25,506 nt of DNA from a virus, in IMG/VR virus record IMGVR_UViG_3300030060_002775, positions 1 to 25,506 of that record; one strand, written 5' to 3'. The notes under the pieces were generated by a model, which was not told the DNA's origin, searched no databases, and saw nothing but the letters and a program-made list of their open reading frames with translations. Positions 8,229-21,395 of the stretch are shown here, in pieces; positions within the stretch are counted from its first letter, which is position 1, and every line of letters begins with the position of its first letter. The translations under genes were made by a program, and so were the position numbers.

Positions 8229-10705
8229 TGGCAAGAGTACATCCATTTCAATCTAATTTTACAGCAGGAGAAATTTCACCTAAATTAAAAGGGCAAGTAA
8301 ATTTTAAAAAATATCCTAACGCATGTGATACGTTAGAAAACATGACTGTCTTTCCACAAGGTGGCGCAAGCCGTAGATATGGCACAACACATGTGTGTAA
8401 AGTCAAAGATTCATCAGCAACTACTAGATTAATACCGTTTGAGTTCAATGTTACACAAGCATATATATTAGAATTTGGAAATAATTATATTAGATTTTAT
8501 AAAGATGATGGTCAAATAACAGAAGCCACAAAAACCATAACAGGAATTACACAAGCAAATCCTGCAGTTGTAACAGCAAGTTCACATGGTTACAGCGATG
8601 GAGATGAAGTATGGATAAATGATGTTGTAGGCATGACAGAATTAAATGGTAGAAGATTTACTGTAGCAAATAAAACAACACATACTTTTGAATTGTCTGG
8701 AATAAATAGTACATCATTGACAGCATATAGTTCTGGTGGAACAGCTGCAAAAGTTTTTGAAGTAACTACTACATATACAGCAGCACAAGTTAATGATATA
8801 AAATTTACACAATCAGCAGATGTAATGTACTTGGTGCATCCTGACCATGAACCAGCAAAATTAACAAGAACAGGACATACATCTTGGACGTTGTCAGATG
8901 TAGTGTTTACTAGAGGACCTTATCTGCCTACAAATACAACAACAACTACATTAAATCCAGGGTCTTCAGGCGCAGGTACTGGTGTAGCTTTAGTTGCATC
9001 TGCAGATTTATTTGCATCTACAGACGTAGGTAGGCTGGTAAAATTACATAGTGGACACGCAAAAATTACAGGATTTACAGATGCACAAAATGTAACAATA
9101 GAAATACTAGAAGCATTATCAGCTTCCACAGCAACAGCAGATTGGCAACTAGGATATTTTTCAGCTACAGATGGTTTTCCTGAAACAGTATCTTTTTTTG
9201 AACAAAGACTTATATATGGTGGCACAACTAATTACCCACAAACAATATTTGCATCTGAATCTGGTGATTACGACAGTATGGACGAAGCTTCTGCAGGCGC
9301 ATCTAATGCATTTATATATACAATAGCAGCAAACAGAGTAAATAAAATTAGATTTTTAACACCTGCTAGAGATTTAATTGTAGGCACAGCAGGTGGCGAA
9401 TTTAAAGTAGGTAGGCCTACAGGTGAGCCACTTAAACCAGACAATGTACAAATAACACAGCAAACAACATTTGGAGTTGCAACTACGCAACCAGTGCAAA
9501 TAGGAAACGCCATATTATTTGTGCAAAGACAAAAAAGAAAAGTTAGAGAGTTTGGTTACAATTTCCAAGACGATGCATATGTTGCACCAGATATGACTTT
9601 GCTTTCAGAACATATAACAGAAGGTGGTATAGAAGAAGTAGCATATGCACAAGAACCAGATTCTATATATTGGGCAGTGCGAAACGATGGCGTACTATTA
9701 GGTCTTACTTATCAAAGAGAAGAAGACATAGTAGCATGGCATAGGCATATTATGGGTGGCAAAGCACAAGAGTGTAAAATTACTGTAACAGATTATGACA
9801 ACACAGTAGCAGGGTCAACTTTAGTATTCACAAAATCAGATGGCACTACTGTTACATTTACATCTACAACAAGCACTCCTGGAACAAACGAATTTAGAAC
9901 ACAAACAAATAACAATACAACAGCAAGTAATTTACAGACAACTATAAATGGTCATGCAGATTTTACAGCGACAGTATCTAGTGCAGTAGTAACAATAAAA
10001 GAAACAACGCCAGAAAGCACAGGTTTGCTTACAGTCGTTAGTAGCGACAATGTGCGTTTGTTAGGACAAAATGAAACGCATGCTAAAGTTAAATCAGTTG
10101 CTACAATTACAGAGGCAACAGAAAATCAAACATGGGTAATAGTAGAGAGAATTATTAATGGTACTACAGTGCAACATGTCGAATTTTTAAATGAAGATGT
10201 AAACATGGACAGTTCTCTTACAGGTAGCGTTACAGGTGCAAGCACAACAGTTACAAGCCTTGACCACCTAGAAGGTGAGACCGTGCAAATACTTATAGAT
10301 GATGCAGTGTACCCCAAACAAAAAGTAAGTAATGGTGCAGTAAGTGTTAGTTTGCCTAGCACATTTGCTACAAAAAGTATACAAGTTGGTAAAGGTTTTG
10401 TATCAACATTAAAAACATTAAATATTGAGGCTGGTGCGCAAGCAGGTACTGCACAAGGCAGAGAAAAAAGGTATAATGAAATTATTGTAAGATTACATGA
10501 AAGTGTAGGCGTGACTATTAATAATGACCAACTTCCATTTAGAAGTTCGGCAGATGAGATGGGTCAGCCAATACCACAATTTACAGGAGACAAACGAGTG
10601 TCTAATCTTGGATGGGATAAAGAAGGTCAAATAACAATACAACAAACTCAGCCTTTGCCCTTGACAGTGTTAGCAATTACAGGAACGCTCGTTAATAGTG
10701 ATTAA
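8228..10705 (+). CDS. Tail tubular protein B / tail nozzle (T7 gp12-like)
   Basis: This 825-residue protein would form the tail nozzle below the gp11-like ring. The start (HPFQSNFTAGEISPKLKGQVNFKKYPNACDTLENMTVFPQGGASRRYGT) is the classic N-terminus of podophage tail nozzle proteins. Later family-like parts are FTQSADVMYLVHPDHEPAKL, then GFPETVSFFEQRLIYGGT and FVQRQKRKVREFGYNFQDDAYVAPDMTLLSEHI. Residues about 100-175 (ITGITQANPAVVTASSHGYSDGDEVWI) look like the small beta-barrel often listed as an E1 FCCH-like domain in phage tail proteins. Around residues 525-620 a Thr-rich beta region appears inserted. The length is close to T7 gp12 (794). Confidence 0.9.
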   Translation: MARVHPFQSNFTAGEISPKLKGQVNFKKYPNACDTLENMTVFPQGGASRRYGTTHVCKVKDSSATTRLIPFEFNVTQAYILEFGNNYIRFYKDDGQITEATKTITGITQANPAVVTASSHGYSDGDEVWINDVVGMTELNGRRFTVANKTTHTFELSGINSTSLTAYSSGGTAAKVFEVTTTYTAAQVNDIKFTQSADVMYLVHPDHEPAKLTRTGHTSWTLSDVVFTRGPYLPTNTTTTTLNPGSSGAGTGVALVASADLFASTDVGRLVKLHSGHAKITGFTDAQNVTIEILEALSASTATADWQLGYFSATDGFPETVSFFEQRLIYGGTTNYPQTIFASESGDYDSMDEASAGASNAFIYTIAANRVNKIRFLTPARDLIVGTAGGEFKVGRPTGEPLKPDNVQITQQTTFGVATTQPVQIGNAILFVQRQKRKVREFGYNFQDDAYVAPDMTLLSEHITEGGIEEVAYAQEPDSIYWAVRNDGVLLGLTYQREEDIVAWHRHIMGGKAQECKITVTDYDNTVAGSTLVFTKSDGTTVTFTSTTSTPGTNEFRTQTNNNTTASNLQTTINGHADFTATVSSAVVTIKETTPESTGLLTVVSSDNVRLLGQNETHAKVKSVATITEATENQTWVIVERIINGTTVQHVEFLNEDVNMDSSLTGSVTGASTTVTSLDHLEGETVQILIDDAVYPKQKVSNGAVSVSLPSTFATKSIQVGKGFVSTLKTLNIEAGAQAGTAQGREKRYNEIIVRLHESVGVTINNDQLPFRSSADEMGQPIPQFTGDKRVSNLGWDKEGQITIQQTQPLPLTVLAITGTLVNSD

Positions 10706-10706
10706 T

Positions 10707-11267
10707 ATGGGATTTCCAATAATAGCATTAGCAATAGCAGGAGCTGCAACAGTATTAGGAACAGTAAATCAAGTTCGTGCTATAAAAAGTCAAGCAGCAC
10801 AAGCTAAATTTAATGAAAAGTATAATTACAATTTAGGTTTAGAAAAAAGATATAATGAACGTAGAAAAGCTTTTCAAAACTGGCGTGCAAACACAGGAAG
10901 ACGTGGTGTAGCTTTTAACAGTGCTTCTAATTTTACAATGGTTAATGAAGCAGCTGAACAAGCAGAAAGAGAAAATAATAGAATGTATAATCGTTATATC
11001 TTAAATAGAAATAATATAAGCGCATCAGCATCAGCACGTATTAGTGGCACAATATTAAAAGGTATAGCACAATTAGGTGCTATAACATATACTGGATATC
11101 GTTACTCAGCAGACGCTGCATTAGCAGAACAAGCTGCATTGACTACTGGCACAGGATATACTGGTGTAACATTTGAATCATTAGGTGGCGTTACACCATA
11201 TAGTGGCCGTTCAGTTTTTGGCACTTCTACTACAGCATTTACACCTTTAACAGGAGGTGGTTCATGA
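10707..11267 (+). CDS. Probable internal virion (ejection) protein, small
   Basis: The 186-residue protein starts with a hydrophobic helix, MGFPIIALAIAGAATVLGTVNQ (about residues 1-22), followed by a long Ala/Gln/Arg/Asn-rich helical body (KSQAAQAKFNEKYNYNLGLEKRYNERRKAFQNWRANTGRRG). It ends in a Gly/Thr/Ser-rich segment. Size, helix pattern and place right after the gp12-like gene match T7 gp14, which is ejected into the outer membrane and helps form the DNA channel. That role is inferred from position and character. I chose ATG 10707, one base after the previous stop. GTG 10698, which would add three residues, is an alternative since AGGA at 10681-10684 is nearer to it. Confidence 0.68.
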   Translation: MGFPIIALAIAGAATVLGTVNQVRAIKSQAAQAKFNEKYNYNLGLEKRYNERRKAFQNWRANTGRRGVAFNSASNFTMVNEAAEQAERENNRMYNRYILNRNNISASASARISGTILKGIAQLGAITYTGYRYSADAALAEQAALTTGTGYTGVTFESLGGVTPYSGRSVFGTSTTAFTPLTGGGS

Positions 11268-13126
11268 AACTAGATGAACAATATACTACTCTCAGTAGTA
11301 CTGCAAACTTAACTGGACAAGGCGATACAACAGCAATTGGAAATACATTACGACAAATAGGTGAAAAAGAAGGTCGTATTAAAAATTTACAAGTAAATGC
11401 AGCTGCAAGACTACAAATAGCAACTGAAGTAAAAAATTCAGATACGCAATTTCAAGTAGCGTCAGATACATGGCTAAGAGATAACACTCTGGAAAATGCA
11501 CAAAACCCAGATATATGGAGAACACAATATAATCAATGGGCAAATTTATGGAGAGAAGAAAATAAAAAGAATTTATCTTCGATATCTTTACAACAAGCAG
11601 AAACACAATGGAATGTAACGCAGGGTAATTACAATCTACAATTAAATGAAAAAATAAGTGGACAAAGAAATAAAAATTTTAAAATTACTTTAGACAATGG
11701 TTTAATAGCTTTTAACAACAATTTAGACCGAGCAGATGACGCAAATAGCGTACAACAAATTTTCGAAGAATTTACGTTAAAAGATGATGAAAGTTTGCTG
11801 AGAGCGCATTTGACCACAGAACAATACACTGCATATAAATCATCTGTGTTCAATCCTGCAAACGAAAAATACATGTTTCATCAAGTAGCTGTGTACAACA
11901 ATGGCGAAGTAGATTTTACAAAAACTCTAGAAAATATAAAAAATGAAAAAGTTCCAGTCAAAACTATTGATGGTAAAACTGTAGATAATAATGATGAAAC
12001 ACGTTTAGCGTTGTTAGACAAAGTAGAAACTTTAGCTGAAAGTCAAACAAGCGCTAACGCAGCAGCAGTAGAAGCTAATAATTTAGCAGGAGTAAAAGAA
12101 TACTATGATGCACTTTTTGCTTATGGCAACGCAACAACAATAGAAGAATCGACCGCTGCTGATAACAGAATGAAAGCTGCATTAGATAATGTATCACCCG
12201 AAGAAAAAATTAAATTAGATGCAGCAAGAGTAAAGTACTTACAGGGAAACAAAAAAATAAGTGGTAATTTACAAACTAATTTTGCACTTTTAGCTAACAT
12301 AGGACAGTTGGATAGAGCTGTGCTAATGGACGCTGTAGACCAAGGAAAATTAGACCCTTCAGCTGTGCCAACATTGTTGTCAACAAATGAAACATCAGAA
12401 AAAAGAATTAATAGCTATAGCAACAAGCATTACAACACAGCTCTTGTAATTTTAGCTAATGAACTTGACATGGGTTTAGATACATCAAAAATAACTGATG
12501 ACGCTAATGCAAATGTTTTATTAATAATGGCAGGTGCTGATTCTAAAAAAGGTGCAGAATTTGTAAGAGCTTTGGACCTTTTAGACGACACTATAAAAGA
12601 AGGAGGCCAAAGATATGGTCTTAGTGCTGATGAAATACTAAGAAATGCCGATGCTTTACTTACTATTAAAAATATGGTAAAAAACAATAATTTTGAATTA
12701 GACACAGATGAAGAACTACAAAAAATTATTACAGATAATACTTTTGCTAAAAAAAATAGAGGTATAGGACCACTTACAACAAGAGGTAAGTTAATAGAAA
12801 TAGAAAAATTTTTACAAGAAGACGGTTTTTACAAAGGTGTGTTACCAACGCCTGTAGGAACACCTGTAAGAACAGAAAACGAAACTGTTGCAGATTATGA
12901 AGCAAGATTAGACAATATACAAAAACTTAGAGACTTACTAAGAATATCGCAAACCGAAAATTTTAGTGCTGCTGAAATGAAAAGATATGCGCAAATAATG
13001 AAAATAGATATTAATTTTGCATTGCCAAATAAAACAATAGAAGAGTCTGTCGATGAGTTATATGAGTTTTTAGAAGCCGCTGTTAAAAAACAAAAACAAG
13101 CTGAAAAACAGGAGTCTGAAGATTAG
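11264..13126 (+). CDS. Probable internal virion (ejection) protein, middle
   Basis: This 620-residue protein is almost wholly helical and charged, with no membrane segment and no known catalytic motif. Recognisable stretches are TLRQIGEKEGRIKNLQVNAAARLQIATEVKNSDTQFQVASDTWL near the start and VADYEARLDNIQKLRDLLRI near the end. It lies between a gp14-like gene and a giant gene, the place of T7 gp15, an internal core protein ejected to line the DNA channel. I infer that role. A perfect AGGAGG (11252-11257) lies six bases before the ATG, which overlaps the previous stop (ATGA). Its last codons contain the AGGAG that probably serves the next gene. Confidence 0.68.
   Translation: MKLDEQYTTLSSTANLTGQGDTTAIGNTLRQIGEKEGRIKNLQVNAAARLQIATEVKNSDTQFQVASDTWLRDNTLENAQNPDIWRTQYNQWANLWREENKKNLSSISLQQAETQWNVTQGNYNLQLNEKISGQRNKNFKITLDNGLIAFNNNLDRADDANSVQQIFEEFTLKDDESLLRAHLTTEQYTAYKSSVFNPANEKYMFHQVAVYNNGEVDFTKTLENIKNEKVPVKTIDGKTVDNNDETRLALLDKVETLAESQTSANAAAVEANNLAGVKEYYDALFAYGNATTIEESTAADNRMKAALDNVSPEEKIKLDAARVKYLQGNKKISGNLQTNFALLANIGQLDRAVLMDAVDQGKLDPSAVPTLLSTNETSEKRINSYSNKHYNTALVILANELDMGLDTSKITDDANANVLLIMAGADSKKGAEFVRALDLLDDTIKEGGQRYGLSADEILRNADALLTIKNMVKNNNFELDTDEELQKIITDNTFAKKNRGIGPLTTRGKLIEIEKFLQEDGFYKGVLPTPVGTPVRTENETVADYEARLDNIQKLRDLLRISQTENFSAAEMKRYAQIMKIDINFALPNKTIEESVDELYEFLEAAVKKQKQAEKQESED
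13110..13114 (+). promoter_or_regulatory. Ribosome binding site supporting an ATT start at 13122
   Basis: AGGAG ends seven bases before ATT 13122. It is in the coding end of the previous gene, as are many ribosome binding sites in this operon. No ATG, GTG or TTG lies in the giant gene's frame between the point where the frame opens (13074) and TTG 13410. The spacing therefore favours initiation at ATT 13122, which overlaps the previous stop as ATTAG. Confidence 0.6.
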
Positions 13127-16100
13127 TATTAATATAAAAAAAATAGAAGATGCTACAGGTCTAAGTGTAGACGATGAAGTAGAAAGAAAGCGACAACAAT
13201 ATTTAGACGCTGGGTTTTCTAACCGTGAAATAAATGAGCATTTTAATAGACTAGATGCAACAGAAAGAGTTGTTGATAGTGATGACAAAGTATTAGATTT
13301 AGACCTTATACCTACTGAATCTAGCGATGCTATATATACTGATTCAAATACCAAAAAGAAAGACAAAATAAAAGAAAAAGAAATATTCCAAGAAAAAGAA
13401 AATCTAAGATTGTCAAAAATAGCAGACCTTACAGATATAAATGCAAGAATACAATTTGCAGCTACATTACAAAACCAAGACACATCTGGCGGAGACAATC
13501 CAGCTTTGTCAACAATTACAGGAGATGTTGATGGAAAATTTAATCCTTTTAAAATAATAGAAAAAGACGCTAATTTAGCACAAGAATTTTATAAAAATGC
13601 ACAACGAGTAGAAGCTAGAGAAAAAACTGCAAAAATAGAAACTAACTATTTAGACTATGGTGGTCTTAGCAATTTTTTTGAATCAGAAGCAAAAAAAAGA
13701 ATATTTTTAGATTCAATTAGTAATATTATTTCTATGTCATCAGGGTCAGTAAACAAATACACTGAAGATGGCACTAGAAGCGGGTTTTTAAGTTTAACAC
13801 CTAAACAATGGAAAGAATGGGTAGAAAATCATGTTAATGTAGAACGTGATTTATATGGTGAAATAATACCAGAAACATGGACATTAGAAGATGACCCTAC
13901 AAATATTTTAGGACAAAGACATCATTCAGCAGTATTAGGTAATTATATTTTATTTTCTCCAAATGTAGACCCAGATTTAAAAGCTAGATTAATAAATGGT
14001 GATATAAATGCTGCAGAAGAATTTGTCAATAAACACATTTACAATGGTGAAGAAAACAATGCAACAGATGTAAAACAAGCAATTTTAAAAAATGAATACG
14101 TTGGCACGTCAGGTGATTTAGCATTTATAAACCCAAAAAGCATAGTAGGAAAAACTACAAAAGTTGTGCCTGGCGGAGAACAACTCGTTAATTTTTTTGG
14201 CGGTTATGGTCAAGAAAATTTAATAAGCAACGGGTTTGATAATGCAACTAATGGAATAGTAGCATTGTTTAATTCATATAAATTAAGAAATGAAATACCT
14301 GATATGGAAGATATTATGAAAGCCGTTAAAGAAAATGCAGGAGAGCCAAACGGTTTTAAAATGATAGGTCGTATTTTAAAAGATTTAATGTTTGAAAAAG
14401 GTTTTACAACTGATACAGCAAAACAAGAACGTATTTTAGATATTATGAATTATAACAACATGCGTGGTGGAAAACAATTTTTTAGGGATATGGTTACTTT
14501 TATGAACGAATTACCATATTATGCTGCAGGCGAAGCTACTAAAAGTATAAACTACGGAAGTAAAATATTAAGAAGTGCCATAGGGTCTGGTACAGCTTTT
14601 TATATTCCTGCAGTTATGAAATCATCTTTAATAGCTGCTATACAAGATAATAAAGTAAATGATTTTAAAAATTTTACAGAACACCTTTTTTCTAGCGAAG
14701 TACAAATAGAAGGTGGAAAAGCTTTTGCAACAGGATTTTTATTACGTGGCATAGGCGAAAAATATATTATGAAACCTATGAGAATAGATTTTGCAAATCC
14801 ATTTACTAAACGTACGCAATCTCTATCTACAACATTTGCAAGAAATAACTCGTTAAGGCCAAACTTTGACCCTCTTCATAATCCAGTACAAAATACTATA
14901 GCTAATATAGCATGGGACACTGTAGGATTAGGAACATTATCGCCAGTAATACAAGAAGCTCGTTTGCCAGAAGCTTCCGATTATTTACATAGCGGAGCGT
15001 TTGCAGCAGCTCTTAGAATTAATGCTTTAGCTTTACGTACATTAAAAGAAGCTAAAATTATCAGAAAAAAAATGCGTGATAATTCTAGCACTATAGACCC
15101 TAAAAAAGTAATTATAGATGTAGAGGGTGTAGAAGTTCATACAAAACAATCTAAAAATATTAAGTTAGGTATTATGCCAGAAGTTTACGACAGATATGAT
15201 ATAGCTGTACGTAAAGCGTTTGAAAAAAATAATGCAATAGTAACCAATCCACCAAAATTTAGACAAAATGAAATAGTCCAACAAAAAATAGGAAAAGAAG
15301 ATTTACAAGTAAAAGAAGTAATAAATCAAAATGGTGTTGATGTAGCTATTGTTAAAAACAAAGATAATGTTCTAGAACCTGTTTTACAAAAAGATTTAGG
15401 TAAACATACACCAAGTATAAAAGGGTTGCATGTTGATAAAACAGAAGAAATAATGCCTATATTCTCAAGTCGTGATATGACTAATTTGCATTTAGAATCA
15501 GCAAAAAGATACAAAGAAATTATAGATGACATGCAAATAAATGATTTTGAACTAAGCACAGATGGTATTTCAGAAGTACAAAAAAAGATAAATGGTATGT
15601 ATTACGGCAAACCTAGAGAACCTTCTATGACAACAAAAAGTGCTAAGGCTCGCAGAAACAATATATCAAATGAAGCTAGTTTTAACAGAATATTTTTAAA
15701 TGATGTTAGTGAAATGAGTGTGTTAGCTGAGATGCTGCCACGTACAAAAACTAGAGTATATAATAAAGAATTTTTAGACGATTACATAAACCCAAAAGAC
15801 AGAAATTATGAGGCACTTAACAAAAAAGATTTTTATAAATCTGTAGAAGGTAGAAATTTTGGAATCAAACCATTGCTTAAATTTAACCCTCTAGGCGATA
15901 AACGTAATCCATTTATTGTTGTCGAAGTAGAATCTAATTTAAATTCAGAAAATCCAGACCTTTATGTATTTAACAAATCTGCGTTTGACATGTTAAATTT
16001 GCAAAAAGGTATTGAACTTACACGACCTGATATATCATTTGTATACGAAAGAGGTTTTAAGCCAACAGAAGGAGAAGGCTCTGCAAACCCACAATATGCA

Positions 16101-19100
16101 AAAAAACCAAAAGAAGAACACGGAGCGTTGTTTTTTACTAAACCATATTTTGGTGATGCTGTACAAGATGTTTTTTTTAATGGTGGCGCTCTTATTGGTG
16201 CTTTAAAACCTTTAAAATTACCTGCACATGTTTATCGCGGGTTGCAAAAAATGGCACAAGTAGAATCTAAAAAAGAAGAAATACCTGTTATAAAAAGCAC
16301 AGAAGATTTTACAGTTACAAATGATTTTTTAAATCCTATTAATTTTGCACCAAAAACTGGAACAGAATTAAGAGACAGGTTGTTCTATGGAACAGGTATG
16401 ACTATGGCAGACATGCTTATAATTTTAAAAAGAATAGGTGTAGAAATAGAATTTATAAGCACAGCGCAAATGAGAACTAAATACGGTGTTACAGGTGCTA
16501 TAGCTTTTACAGGTCCACCAGAACTCTTTAACAAAAAAGCACAACCTGGAACGTTAAAACAATCTCAAATGAAGTTAGTAATTAATGAGCAATTAAAAAG
16601 TAATCCATCTTTGCGAATACAATTAGAACAAACTTTTGCACACGAATTTATGCACATTATTGATTATTATGATAAAAATTTTGATAAATATACACCGTAT
16701 AAAGAACGTGATACTACCGAAGAATACACAAAACTTTTTAATGATTTAGGTTTTGAAAAAGGTTATTTAGCAAGTTTTGGAACAGATGATAAAACAGGTA
16801 AACCAACAGGTAGAGTGCCAGGTAATTTTAATTTTGAAGAACTCAATAAATTTCTTGTAAAACAAGGCAAAAAAACAAAAACAAAAGATTTTATAAAACT
16901 AGGTAGAGGTAATGTATTAGGCGCTTTAGGCACGTTTAAAAATTTTGGTGAAGAATTTTTTGATATGAATAACAATGCACCTATGTCACGTATAGCTTTT
17001 ATTACTAGAAAACAAGAATTAGAGCGTGCTGCTGGTAAAAAAGAAGAAGTTGCTAAAGAACAAGAAAGATACAAAGCATTGTTTGAAACTGATGTTGTAC
17101 CAAAAGATATCTTAAAAGAAGAAAACATTAGCAATGTATTAGAACAATTTACTGCTATTAGTTTGTATGACGATTTTCTTAATTTTAAAAAACCTTTACA
17201 ATTACAATTTATACGAAGGGCAATTGAAATAATGCCAAAAGATGCTCGAGAAATATTCTTTAATCCACAAACATTTAGTCCTGCAGATTATAAAGAATAC
17301 GGACGTGCATTTGCAAGAGCTTTTGAAAAAGTTTTCCTTAATGAAGGTATGTTAAGCATGCATGTTGTACACAGAGAAATGTCAGAAATAAGTCAAAGGT
17401 TTAGACCTATGGACGACACGTATCTTGACCCGCGTCATCCTTTTTATTCTGATTTTATGACAAAAACTGGTCGTAGTTTTTTTGATACTTTTAAAATTGA
17501 AAGTGATGTAGGCACTTTTATACCAGCAATAACATCTTTAAAAGAACAATTAGCAGAAAAAGGTTATGTTTTGCCTAATTCAAAAAGAATTTTAGAAATG
17601 ACACCAGGTGAATATACTGAAATGTTAGAAACTGTAAGAAGGTTTTTAAGTGGTAAAAATACTAGGCAAATTAATAAATTAATGAAGCCTCTGATATCTA
17701 TGCATCGTCAAATGTTTAATTATTTTAACAACACAAAAGAGTTATTTGCAGATTGGGGTATGGCATTTGTTTTATATCCTGAATATGTAAAAGTTCATGC
17801 GCCTACTACAACATCATTTTTCTTACAACATTTAGAAAAAAAACCTGAATTTGCAAAAGTTTATTTAGATATACAAGCTGCTTTAGCTAAAACACCAGGT
17901 AGTGGTGAAGGTAGAGAAGAACAACTATTTGATTCTATAGTAAAAGAAATTTCTGATGCACAAACTAAAGTACGTGACAAACAAACAGAAATGGATAATA
18001 TAGCTAACCCTTTTAGAATTAAAGGTGCTGTATATGAACAACATGCTTTCCTTACATCGTTTTTAGATATAGGTGGTGGTAAACCAACAGAGCTAGCAAC
18101 AGCTATTTTAGAAGAAAGAAAAATGCCTAATTTAAAATCTAAAGATGAATTAGATGTTACTAATGACCCAGATTTAACTATGGCAAAAGATGTAAAATGG
18201 CATCTTCTGCAAAACCAACTTAAAGCTACTGATTTTGAAATGATAGGTAATAAACTAGAACCTTACATAAATCAGATGTTTGAGCTTAAACTTAAATATG
18301 GAATAGAAGATATGGAATCTTTTTTTACTACAGTTGCGTTACTAAACACCATGGTAAAAGGTGGTTCTAGAGAAGACATTGTAGAAAATCCATTTTTCCT
18401 TGCTAGTAAAGAACATTTTAAAGACCAAAAAATACAACCACGTGATGCAACAGGACAAAAAGTAGGTGAGCCAGTTGATGTAACAGATTTATTAAGCAAA
18501 AAACCTATGGCAGAAGACATGCTTAAATTTATTGATAAAAAATATCCAGAAATGAATCAGTTGTTTGATGACATTGCAGAAACAGGTAAAGAAATTTTAT
18601 TAGGAGCATTAAATACATCAGGCCTGGTAGATTTAAATACTCTTAAAAAAATAAAAAACAAAAAATATTTTGCATTTGCATATGCAGATAGAGAAATTGA
18701 AAGAATAGAAAAAACTGGTATGCCAGGTTTTAAAGGCAGTGGTTTTGAAAAAATGTCTGGTTCTTATAAAACACCAATGGCATCTGTTGAAGTTTATTTT
18801 GCAAAACTTTTTTACATAGCCAATGCTGCTGGTAGAAATAAATTACTTAATGTTTTGTTTAGAACTGAACCTTACGATGCTGCAGGTATAAATAAAATGT
18901 TAAGAGATAATGGTTTAATGGTAGAAAAAAACCAATTATACCCGATAGCAACAGAACTGTGGCAAGGACAACGTGGTTATGTGTGGGAACATAAAGAACT
19001 TATGGAACAATTTTTTCCTGGAATATTTGGTAGCACTATAGGTGCTAAAGGTTTTAAGCTTGAAACCTTACCTGACGGTTCAAAAACTTTAGCTTTTAAC

Positions 19101-21395
19101 AACGATTTGAAAGACAGAGTTATTAGAGAAGTTACAAAAGAAGACATGTCTGTGCCTACTAAAATACGTAATCAAGCACTAGAATTAAGAAAAAAAGCAA
19201 GAAGGTTATCTAATGTTTTTAGTGCAGAATATAATCCAGATTTGGCTGACAGTTTAAGAGAACAAGCATTTTATCTCGAATTAGAAAATACGTTTGTAAA
19301 TCCAGCACGAATACCAAAATTCATGAAACTGTTAGAATTTAATATGATGACTAATGAACGTTTAACAGATGTTGTTTCTTTAATGACTGGAGAAAAAATA
19401 GAAGGCATGGATTTAGAAATTGTATCTGGCAAAACAAGTATAGTAAGAGTTTTTGTACATGAAAGTCTTGCAGATGCTTTTCTTAATGACGATGCACCTA
19501 TTACAAACTCTAATTTCTTAAAATGGTGGTTAGGTTGGCAACAATTATTTAAAGAAATATATGTCGGGTACAACCCTATATATGCAATGCGTAATCCTGC
19601 TAGAGACATCTTTGATATAGCTGTAGAATCTGGTGCAAATTTAACAAACTTGTTAGATAAAAATGCATACAATAATGTTAAAAATATTTTAGCAAGATTT
19701 ACAGATAAAGACATAGAAAAAGTTGACAAACAAACACAAGCTTTAGCATATGCAAAATATGTAATAGAAGCCTTGCCTGATACTTATCGTGCTATAAGAG
19801 GCAAAAAAATAATAGACGCAGAAAACGAAGAATTTTTTAAAAGAATAAACATGCTTCCATTAAGAGGTGAAGTAGGTGCATCTTATAATGTATTTCGTAA
19901 CGAAACCGCACGTAATGATATGGACTCTTTGTTAGATAGATTGTCTATCCAAAATAAAGTTAATTACCACCGCAATCCAGAAAGAGCTTTTGCAAATCAT
20001 GTGTTACCTCATGCACAAAAATTGTTGTATGAAATCTATAGTCTTACAAAAGCAGGTGAAGTAGCACCGCGTGCTGCATTTTGGAGATATTATAGAGACG
20101 GACAAAAAGCTGGTCGTTATCCAGATGTAGACCCAAAACTATTAGATTTAGAAATAGGTACAATATTGACACCTAATTATGCAGCAAGAGGTGGTAGCAC
20201 GGCTAAATATTTAGAAGCTTTTAGCCCTTTCTTTAACGCAACAGTGCAATCATACAGAAAATCTACAAGAGCTTTTCAAAGAAATCCTAAAGGTTATGTA
20301 GCTAGAACACTTTCTTATCACAAGTGGGATATCATAGTTGCTATGGCATTAGCAGGTATGTTTGGTTCAGCTATTAGAACATTATTTATGGGTATTAGTC
20401 CAGAAGATTCTGTTTTATATCACCCATTACCAATGTTCTTACAAACAGGTAATGCAAAAGATGGGTCAGAAAATAGTTTATGGTATTTAACTGTACCAAG
20501 AAGCGCAAATTCAATTGCTGTAAATTATTTTATTAGAAGCACCGTGAATAAATTAGGTCATACTGCTGGGTTTGATGGTATGGGGTCAGCATATACAGAC
20601 CGTCAAGACCGTGCTGCTATTAATTATTTAACATTTAATGAATCTGTTTTGTATCATTCTATTATTGATATAGCAAGTTTTCTTGTACATGGACAAATGC
20701 CTAAAAGTAATCTTACAGGCCAGTATCTAGTAGATGATGCAACAGCAACTTTATCAGAAGCGTCAGAATACAATTTAAATTTCTTTGGACCAATGGGTGA
20801 TAACATGTCTAGATTTAGATTTTTTGATGATTTTGCAAAAAGTTTTTCAAACAAATATGGTTTACTATCTCCTTTTGGTTTTGAATTTGATATGAATAGA
20901 GATAAAAGATACGAAACATTTAACGACAGACTTAAAAGCACACCTGGTGGAGCATTGCTAGCACCATTTATAAAACAAGGTCCACAGTTAGGTGAACTAG
21001 CTATAAACGAATATAAGCATGATAAAAAAATTGTACAGGCTACAGAAGAAGAAAAAATTACTGGTTATTTTAAATCTGTTAATAACGGAAAAACACCAAC
21101 ACAAGACCAGGTAGAAGCTTTATATGCTAAAATTAAAAGAAATGGCATAGATGGGTTTGCAGAATTTTGCAGACAAAAAGGCATGAATTGTTCTAGAAAA
21201 GGATTGCAGTATTTAAGTCTTAGTAAAAAAGAAAGAGATTATATGGAAAAATATTATTATAACAGATTTATAAATGGTCAAACAGGCACTATGGTTGATG
21301 AAGATAAAGATGCATACGATGATGTGCGCAAAAAACTATATGAACAACAACTCAAAGAATTAAAAGGTGAAAACGTTGAAGAACAACAAGAATAA
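13122..21395 (+). CDS. Giant ejection/polyvalent protein with metallopeptidase motif; probable ATT start
   Basis: From ATT 13122 the protein has about 2757 residues; starting at the first ordinary codon (TTG 13410) gives 2661. The extra 96 codons look coding, for example VERKRQQYLDAGFSNREI, and otherwise leave 280 unexplained bases. Residues 1174-1178 are HEFMH, an HExxH zinc-peptidase motif, in QTFAHEFMHIIDYYDK. Near 1540, KELFADWGMAFVLYPEY resembles a second conserved motif of phage-borne metallopeptidases. About residues 2130-2440 (VGYNPIYAMRNPARD, then PNYAARGG and SPFFNATVQSYRKS) resemble large polyvalent protein domain LPD38. A hydrophobic segment lies near 2402-2424 (IIVAMALAGMFGSAI). 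Position after gp14/gp15-like genes suggests the T7 gp16 role: a large core protein ejected into the host. No lysozyme or transglycosylase motif was found. Confidence 0.8.
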   Translation: MSINIKKIEDATGLSVDDEVERKRQQYLDAGFSNREINEHFNRLDATERVVDSDDKVLDLDLIPTESSDAIYTDSNTKKKDKIKEKEIFQEKENLRLSKIADLTDINARIQFAATLQNQDTSGGDNPALSTITGDVDGKFNPFKIIEKDANLAQEFYKNAQRVEAREKTAKIETNYLDYGGLSNFFESEAKKRIFLDSISNIISMSSGSVNKYTEDGTRSGFLSLTPKQWKEWVENHVNVERDLYGEIIPETWTLEDDPTNILGQRHHSAVLGNYILFSPNVDPDLKARLINGDINAAEEFVNKHIYNGEENNATDVKQAILKNEYVGTSGDLAFINPKSIVGKTTKVVPGGEQLVNFFGGYGQENLISNGFDNATNGIVALFNSYKLRNEIPDMEDIMKAVKENAGEPNGFKMIGRILKDLMFEKGFTTDTAKQERILDIMNYNNMRGGKQFFRDMVTFMNELPYYAAGEATKSINYGSKILRSAIGSGTAFYIPAVMKSSLIAAIQDNKVNDFKNFTEHLFSSEVQIEGGKAFATGFLLRGIGEKYIMKPMRIDFANPFTKRTQSLSTTFARNNSLRPNFDPLHNPVQNTIANIAWDTVGLGTLSPVIQEARLPEASDYLHSGAFAAALRINALALRTLKEAKIIRKKMRDNSSTIDPKKVIIDVEGVEVHTKQSKNIKLGIMPEVYDRYDIAVRKAFEKNNAIVTNPPKFRQNEIVQQKIGKEDLQVKEVINQNGVDVAIVKNKDNVLEPVLQKDLGKHTPSIKGLHVDKTEEIMPIFSSRDMTNLHLESAKRYKEIIDDMQINDFELSTDGISEVQKKINGMYYGKPREPSMTTKSAKARRNNISNEASFNRIFLNDVSEMSVLAEMLPRTKTRVYNKEFLDDYINPKDRNYEALNKKDFYKSVEGRNFGIKPLLKFNPLGDKRNPFIVVEVESNLNSENPDLYVFNKSAFDMLNLQKGIELTRPDISFVYERGFKPTEGEGSANPQYAKKPKEEHGALFFTKPYFGDAVQDVFFNGGALIGALKPLKLPAHVYRGLQKMAQVESKKEEIPVIKSTEDFTVTNDFLNPINFAPKTGTELRDRLFYGTGMTMADMLIILKRIGVEIEFISTAQMRTKYGVTGAIAFTGPPELFNKKAQPGTLKQSQMKLVINEQLKSNPSLRIQLEQTFAHEFMHIIDYYDKNFDKYTPYKERDTTEEYTKLFNDLGFEKGYLASFGTDDKTGKPTGRVPGNFNFEELNKFLVKQGKKTKTKDFIKLGRGNVLGALGTFKNFGEEFFDMNNNAPMSRIAFITRKQELERAAGKKEEVAKEQERYKALFETDVVPKDILKEENISNVLEQFTAISLYDDFLNFKKPLQLQFIRRAIEIMPKDAREIFFNPQTFSPADYKEYGRAFARAFEKVFLNEGMLSMHVVHREMSEISQRFRPMDDTYLDPRHPFYSDFMTKTGRSFFDTFKIESDVGTFIPAITSLKEQLAEKGYVLPNSKRILEMTPGEYTEMLETVRRFLSGKNTRQINKLMKPLISMHRQMFNYFNNTKELFADWGMAFVLYPEYVKVHAPTTTSFFLQHLEKKPEFAKVYLDIQAALAKTPGSGEGREEQLFDSIVKEISDAQTKVRDKQTEMDNIANPFRIKGAVYEQHAFLTSFLDIGGGKPTELATAILEERKMPNLKSKDELDVTNDPDLTMAKDVKWHLLQNQLKATDFEMIGNKLEPYINQMFELKLKYGIEDMESFFTTVALLNTMVKGGSREDIVENPFFLASKEHFKDQKIQPRDATGQKVGEPVDVTDLLSKKPMAEDMLKFIDKKYPEMNQLFDDIAETGKEILLGALNTSGLVDLNTLKKIKNKKYFAFAYADREIERIEKTGMPGFKGSGFEKMSGSYKTPMASVEVYFAKLFYIANAAGRNKLLNVLFRTEPYDAAGINKMLRDNGLMVEKNQLYPIATELWQGQRGYVWEHKELMEQFFPGIFGSTIGAKGFKLETLPDGSKTLAFNNDLKDRVIREVTKEDMSVPTKIRNQALELRKKARRLSNVFSAEYNPDLADSLREQAFYLELENTFVNPARIPKFMKLLEFNMMTNERLTDVVSLMTGEKIEGMDLEIVSGKTSIVRVFVHESLADAFLNDDAPITNSNFLKWWLGWQQLFKEIYVGYNPIYAMRNPARDIFDIAVESGANLTNLLDKNAYNNVKNILARFTDKDIEKVDKQTQALAYAKYVIEALPDTYRAIRGKKIIDAENEEFFKRINMLPLRGEVGASYNVFRNETARNDMDSLLDRLSIQNKVNYHRNPERAFANHVLPHAQKLLYEIYSLTKAGEVAPRAAFWRYYRDGQKAGRYPDVDPKLLDLEIGTILTPNYAARGGSTAKYLEAFSPFFNATVQSYRKSTRAFQRNPKGYVARTLSYHKWDIIVAMALAGMFGSAIRTLFMGISPEDSVLYHPLPMFLQTGNAKDGSENSLWYLTVPRSANSIAVNYFIRSTVNKLGHTAGFDGMGSAYTDRQDRAAINYLTFNESVLYHSIIDIASFLVHGQMPKSNLTGQYLVDDATATLSEASEYNLNFFGPMGDNMSRFRFFDDFAKSFSNKYGLLSPFGFEFDMNRDKRYETFNDRLKSTPGGALLAPFIKQGPQLGELAINEYKHDKKIVQATEEEKITGYFKSVNNGKTPTQDQVEALYAKIKRNGIDGFAEFCRQKGMNCSRKGLQYLSLSKKERDYMEKYYYNRFINGQTGTMVDEDKDAYDDVRKKLYEQQLKELKGENVEEQQE

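Follow-up and report, generated by a model that had tools for sequence, protein, structure and literature searches.

The window analysed here is a 25,506-base stretch of a marine phage genome, bases 1–25506 of a 37,475-base virus record. Its gene order is podovirus-like, with terminase, portal, capsid, tail tubular A/B, internal-protein-like genes including one giant gene, and tail genes, and agrees with that of pelagiphage Baldr. The giant gene is placed after tail tubular A/B and the internal protein genes, as in pelagiphages. One relative used for sequence comparisons was G001 (IMGVR_UViG_3300030207_000942), an IMG/VR contig reached through a terminase search. The features at the junction between the giant gene and the gene upstream of it are as follows:

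11264–13126, + strand: upstream gene, 620 aa, probable internal virion/ejection protein (role by position only)
13110–13114, + strand: Shine-Dalgarno sequence AGGAG, 7 nt ahead of ATT 13122
13122–13124, + strand: proposed start codon ATT (ATG junction position in relatives; N-terminal motif register)
13122–13126, + strand: ATTAG, five-base start/stop overlap (from the sequence; overlap class in PMC10666635)
13122–13409, + strand: N-terminal part of the giant gene, 96 codons without ATG, GTG or TTG (alignment to G001)
13122–21395, + strand: giant gene, 2757 codons, probable ejection protein (role by position; 42% identical to the 2798-aa protein of G001)
13200–13244, + strand: N-terminal motif YLDAGFSNREINEHF, common to pelagiphage giant proteins
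13410–13412, + strand: TTG, first start acceptable to standard gene callers, without a Shine-Dalgarno sequence

The giant frame is open from 13074 to 21395, and reading of this frame confirmed the statement of the first-pass annotation that it contains no ATG, GTG or TTG ahead of TTG 13410. The upstream gene ends with the TAG at 13124–13126, the first base of which is the last base of ATT 13122, and AGGAG is located seven bases 5' of this ATT, as had been described. The ATTAG overlap had also been likened to the other gene junctions here. This likeness did not stand, because the other junctions in the window show overlaps of -1, -4, -8 or -10, all with canonical starts, from which the -5 overlap differs. 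Of the two other frames within 13122–13409, one contains 12 stops and the other 15, and the G+C content at the three codon positions is 0.48/0.26/0.14, similar to the 0.45/0.34/0.16 of the rest of the giant gene. Since the apparent 340-nt gap at 2130–2469 contains two small ATG-started frames, the largest true gap 5' of the giant gene is the 133 nt before the capsid gene. RNA folding near the ATTAG junction showed a stability not above that of shuffles (z -0.25), an Rfam search found nothing, and we make no claim for a regulatory hairpin at this position.

The major head and tail-tube proteins of the window and G001 are 86–99% identical, and the 42% identity between the two giant proteins extends over their full length. 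The G001 giant gene starts with an ATG that overlaps the upstream stop (TAATG, -1 type), and its N-terminus aligned with the protein read from the ATT beginning at the first residue (MK-DLKQIQADVDFDVDEYELKLRKKYKNAGFTDAEINKHLNTLD versus ISINIKKIEDATGLSVDDEVERKRQQYLDAGFSNREINEHFNRLD). Within the first 96 residues 90 positions align, of which 29 are identical, and the score is 116, whereas shuffled controls (n=500) gave a mean of -7, a standard deviation of 10.9 and a maximum of 40. The next three 96-residue blocks are 39–55% identical between the two proteins; the extension is thus somewhat more diverged than the neighbouring blocks, yet clearly related to G001. A relative with a protein beginning at the position of TTG 13410 would have spoken against the first-pass annotation, and the outcome favours it, as G001 starts at the junction and aligns with the extension. 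In the comparison with G001, each of the 14 upstream gene pairs is intact, as is the giant gene.

The 620-aa upstream protein is 35% identical to the product of a 606-aa gene at the corresponding place in G001, and both proteins end in Glu-Asp-stop. The three ejection-type genes at 10698–21395 are merely 53%, 35% and 42% identical to their G001 counterparts; set against 86–99% in the head and tail-tube proteins, these values suggest a fast-changing or exchanged cassette. The GTG starts at 1860 and 10698 are retained in G001.

The set of relatives examined comprised 14 phages, namely Baldr, HTVC010P, HTVC034P, HTVC204P and ten IMG/VR contigs (G001 among them). Whether relatives have ATG at this point had been raised in the first-pass annotation, and in all 14 the giant gene has an ATG at the junction or within about 8 nt of it. 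Because of this uniformity, the ATT would be either peculiar to the window genome or its lineage, or an error.

A tandem AGFS-type motif, with copies 21 residues apart, was found in the giant N-termini of eight relatives (L088, L092, L093 (HTVC010P), L099, L106, L111, L117 and L118), the second copy lying 31–35 residues after the ATG. In the window giant protein the second copy alone is clear and the first is degenerate. Counted from ATT 13122 the motif falls at residue 30, compared with residue 29 in G001 and residues 29–35 in the relatives overall. The pelagiphage giants (EXVC032P Baldr, HTVC010P gp17, HTVC034P gp44 and HTVC204P gp40) occupy the same place as the window giant and carry the same type of N-terminal motif, but differ from it in their ATG start and two clear motif copies.

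We built an N-terminal profile from seven other giant proteins, with the window and G001 excluded; the giant proteins of these relatives are not found by BLAST with the window giant. When 901 frames of the window and G001 genomes were searched, the window giant frame ranked first (E 0.001) and G001 second, and the match falls before TTG 13410. Conservation against G001 and this profile match both uphold the earlier view of the 96 codons as real protein. The location of the profile match ahead of the TTG, together with the motif register, indicates that the giant gene begins at the junction and not at TTG 13410. As had been anticipated, gene callers limited to ATG, GTG and TTG would leave out the 96 N-terminal residues, the first start acceptable to them being this TTG.

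Searches of Pfam and PHROGs gave no significant match for the giant protein of the window, nor for those of G001 and Baldr, and no family in these collections covered the AGFS-type motif in the giants scanned. The N-terminal 800 aa and the whole giant protein found no match by tblastn in 50,697 phage records. Scans of viral contigs with the window protein, two-sequence alignments and the G001 protein returned G001 as the only match, and a genome-contig search for the giant family returned none. Searched exactly, but with any base allowed at the third position of the start codon, the junction sequence matched no other contig. Further into the giant protein, the sequence HEFMH (HExxH) at 16641–16655 is followed by IDYYD and later by FGEEFFD, and these are kept in G001; this region is likely a zinc metallopeptidase domain. 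AlphaFold models of residues 1–260 and of the metallopeptidase-like part (mean pLDDT 41 and 43, respectively) were too poor for use.

Among 485 neighbouring gene pairs surveyed in related phages, the window giant alone combines a long conserved coding stretch with the lack of a usual start. A start-less, unannotated frame of 228 codons in HTVC010P (L093, NC_020481; 12335–13027, flagged as 12341–13024) was rejected because it proved to be the C-terminal half of gp16, the internal-protein gene. A frame change at seven consecutive A interrupts this gene in HTVC010P, and its HTVC034P counterpart is whole (580 aa); the break may be a sequencing error or a real split. The missing-start case in L105 was also set aside, as its first ATG sits where the homologues begin aligning. 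Two further small cases were flagged, with gaps of 28 and 41 nt.

Three in-frame candidates for the start are found at the junction, ATT 13122, ATT 13128 and ATA 13134, with AGGAG 7, 13 and 19 nt away, respectively. The first of these fits best, because window genes with five- or six-base Shine-Dalgarno sequences show spacings of 6–8 nt. The AGGAG spacing, the junction position and the motif register agree on ATT 13122 as the best-placed start, in line with the original proposal. The related ATG giant genes have Shine-Dalgarno matches of at most four bases (AGGA in L113; AGGA 11 nt away in L109), and in this single case AGGAG looks like compensation for a weak codon, which the good ribosome-binding site may offset. 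In the first-pass annotation the ATT was suggested as a possible means of holding down the copy number of the giant protein; since the relatives combine a better codon with a poorer site, however, the net initiation rates of the two arrangements could be similar. Against the ATT stand the very weak activity of AUU in reporters and the fact that the codon is not conserved, all relatives having ATG. The codon is read from one assembled sequence. As a matter of judgement and not of computation, we consider ATT 13122 the best reading and probably the true start.

With a consensus or assembly error, one wrong base in the contig would conceal a canonical start of the phage at the junction. A single wrong base would suffice to give exactly the observed picture, and the ATG carried by all relatives at or beside the junction agrees with this explanation. 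Prior odds would be indecisive, as single-base metagenome consensus errors are presumably about as rare as true ATT starts. However, the final T of the ATT doubles as the beginning of the upstream stop codon, and the G001 counterpart of the upstream protein has the same Glu-Asp-stop. Nor is the sequence error-ridden, given the intact state of the 14 upstream gene pairs and of the giant gene against G001, and a Shine-Dalgarno sequence at 7 nt that is stronger than in the related giants is what a weak codon needs. A wrong length of the A run at 13136–13143 would yield no canonical start, as the two remaining frames each meet a stop no later than this run. We judge a one-base error, the main rival to a genuine ATT, to be unlikely.

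Initiation at ATT 13128 or ATA 13134 would also retain an in-frame start near the junction, but with AGGAG at 13 and 19 nt these codons are poorly served, and they would place the motif at residues 28 and 26, a poorer fit than 30; we regard this as improbable. A start at TTG 13410, the first that standard callers accept, would leave the 96 codons untranslated and is strongly disfavoured, as these residues show conservation at the protein level and include the N-terminal motif, whereas the TTG has no Shine-Dalgarno sequence and a relative starts at the junction. The two frames overlap (13074–13126) in a +1 relation, as would be expected for a +1 ribosomal frameshift near the stop that fuses the upstream protein to the giant, but this is scarcely credible because the relatives have separate ATG genes in other phase relations (G001 TAATG, -1 type) and GAT TAG is no recognised +1 slip site.

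Initiation at ATT 13122 can be compared with known systems. AUU is a working weak start, and in E. coli the AUU-initiated genes are infC and pcnB, two in all (PMC9410913). Like these, the window giant would have an AUU start on a long conserved protein, as there is no usual start where the conserved protein begins and a Shine-Dalgarno sequence is present at usable spacing. It differs from them in that infC and pcnB belong to the host, with infC linked to autoregulation by IF3, whereas the window giant would be a virion gene of a phage, with one base common to its start codon and the stop of the gene before it. Because its product is not IF3, autoregulation of the infC type is not implied. A literature search of partial coverage found no AUU start in a phage virion gene.

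The overlap has its own precedents. Among the 2.66 million gene pairs of a published survey, overlaps of -5 were rarer than those of -4 by a factor of more than 1,000 (PMC10666635). They are impossible with ATG, GTG and TTG, because the usual starts end in G and stops begin with T; ATT is named as a possible exception, with ATTAG among the forms (PMC10666635). A 64-codon test, as cited in PMC10666635, put an ATT start at about 0.3% of the ATG rate. Termination-reinitiation pairs (ATGA, TAATG; PMC10666635) resemble the window junction in their tight stop/start overlap, which is consistent with coupling, but differ from it in that the -5 overlap is barred to ATG, GTG and TTG. A Shine-Dalgarno sequence raises reinitiation after a nearby stop, and IF3 counters non-canonical starts as well as reinitiation in the absence of a Shine-Dalgarno sequence (PMC2268962).

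The coding extension, its position at the junction, the Shine-Dalgarno site and the -5 overlap are plain from the sequence, and the stop/start overlap (ATTAG, -5) is consistent with a translationally coupled gene pair. The junction fits coupled initiation at AUU aided by AGGAG. A ribosome translating the upstream gene would stop at TAG 13124–13126 with AGGAG 13110–13114 and the ATT close by. The same ribosome, or a new 30S subunit directed there by AGGAG, would then put the initiator tRNA on AUU, with standard pairing at two positions and weak pairing at the third. The product would be a protein of 2757 residues with an N-terminal fMet. Termination-reinitiation may in this way contribute to translation of the giant gene, and the Shine-Dalgarno sequence would offset the weak codon. 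With the genes in this phase no canonical start could have a base in common with the stop, and ATT is therefore the codon that permits the shortest overlap. We infer that the ATT base is correct and that initiation occurs there. Taken as a whole, the account in which a phage structural gene is initiated by AUU at a stop-sharing ATTAG, with a real -5 overlap, a Shine-Dalgarno sequence that offsets the codon and output of the giant coupled to that of its partner, is one we favour with some reserve.

Very few bacterial genes are known to be initiated at AUU. If true, the present case would provide a natural -5 overlap and an example of a weak codon paired with a good binding site at a coupled junction. 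It would also show that phage structural proteins are truncated by gene callers that accept ATG, GTG and TTG alone.
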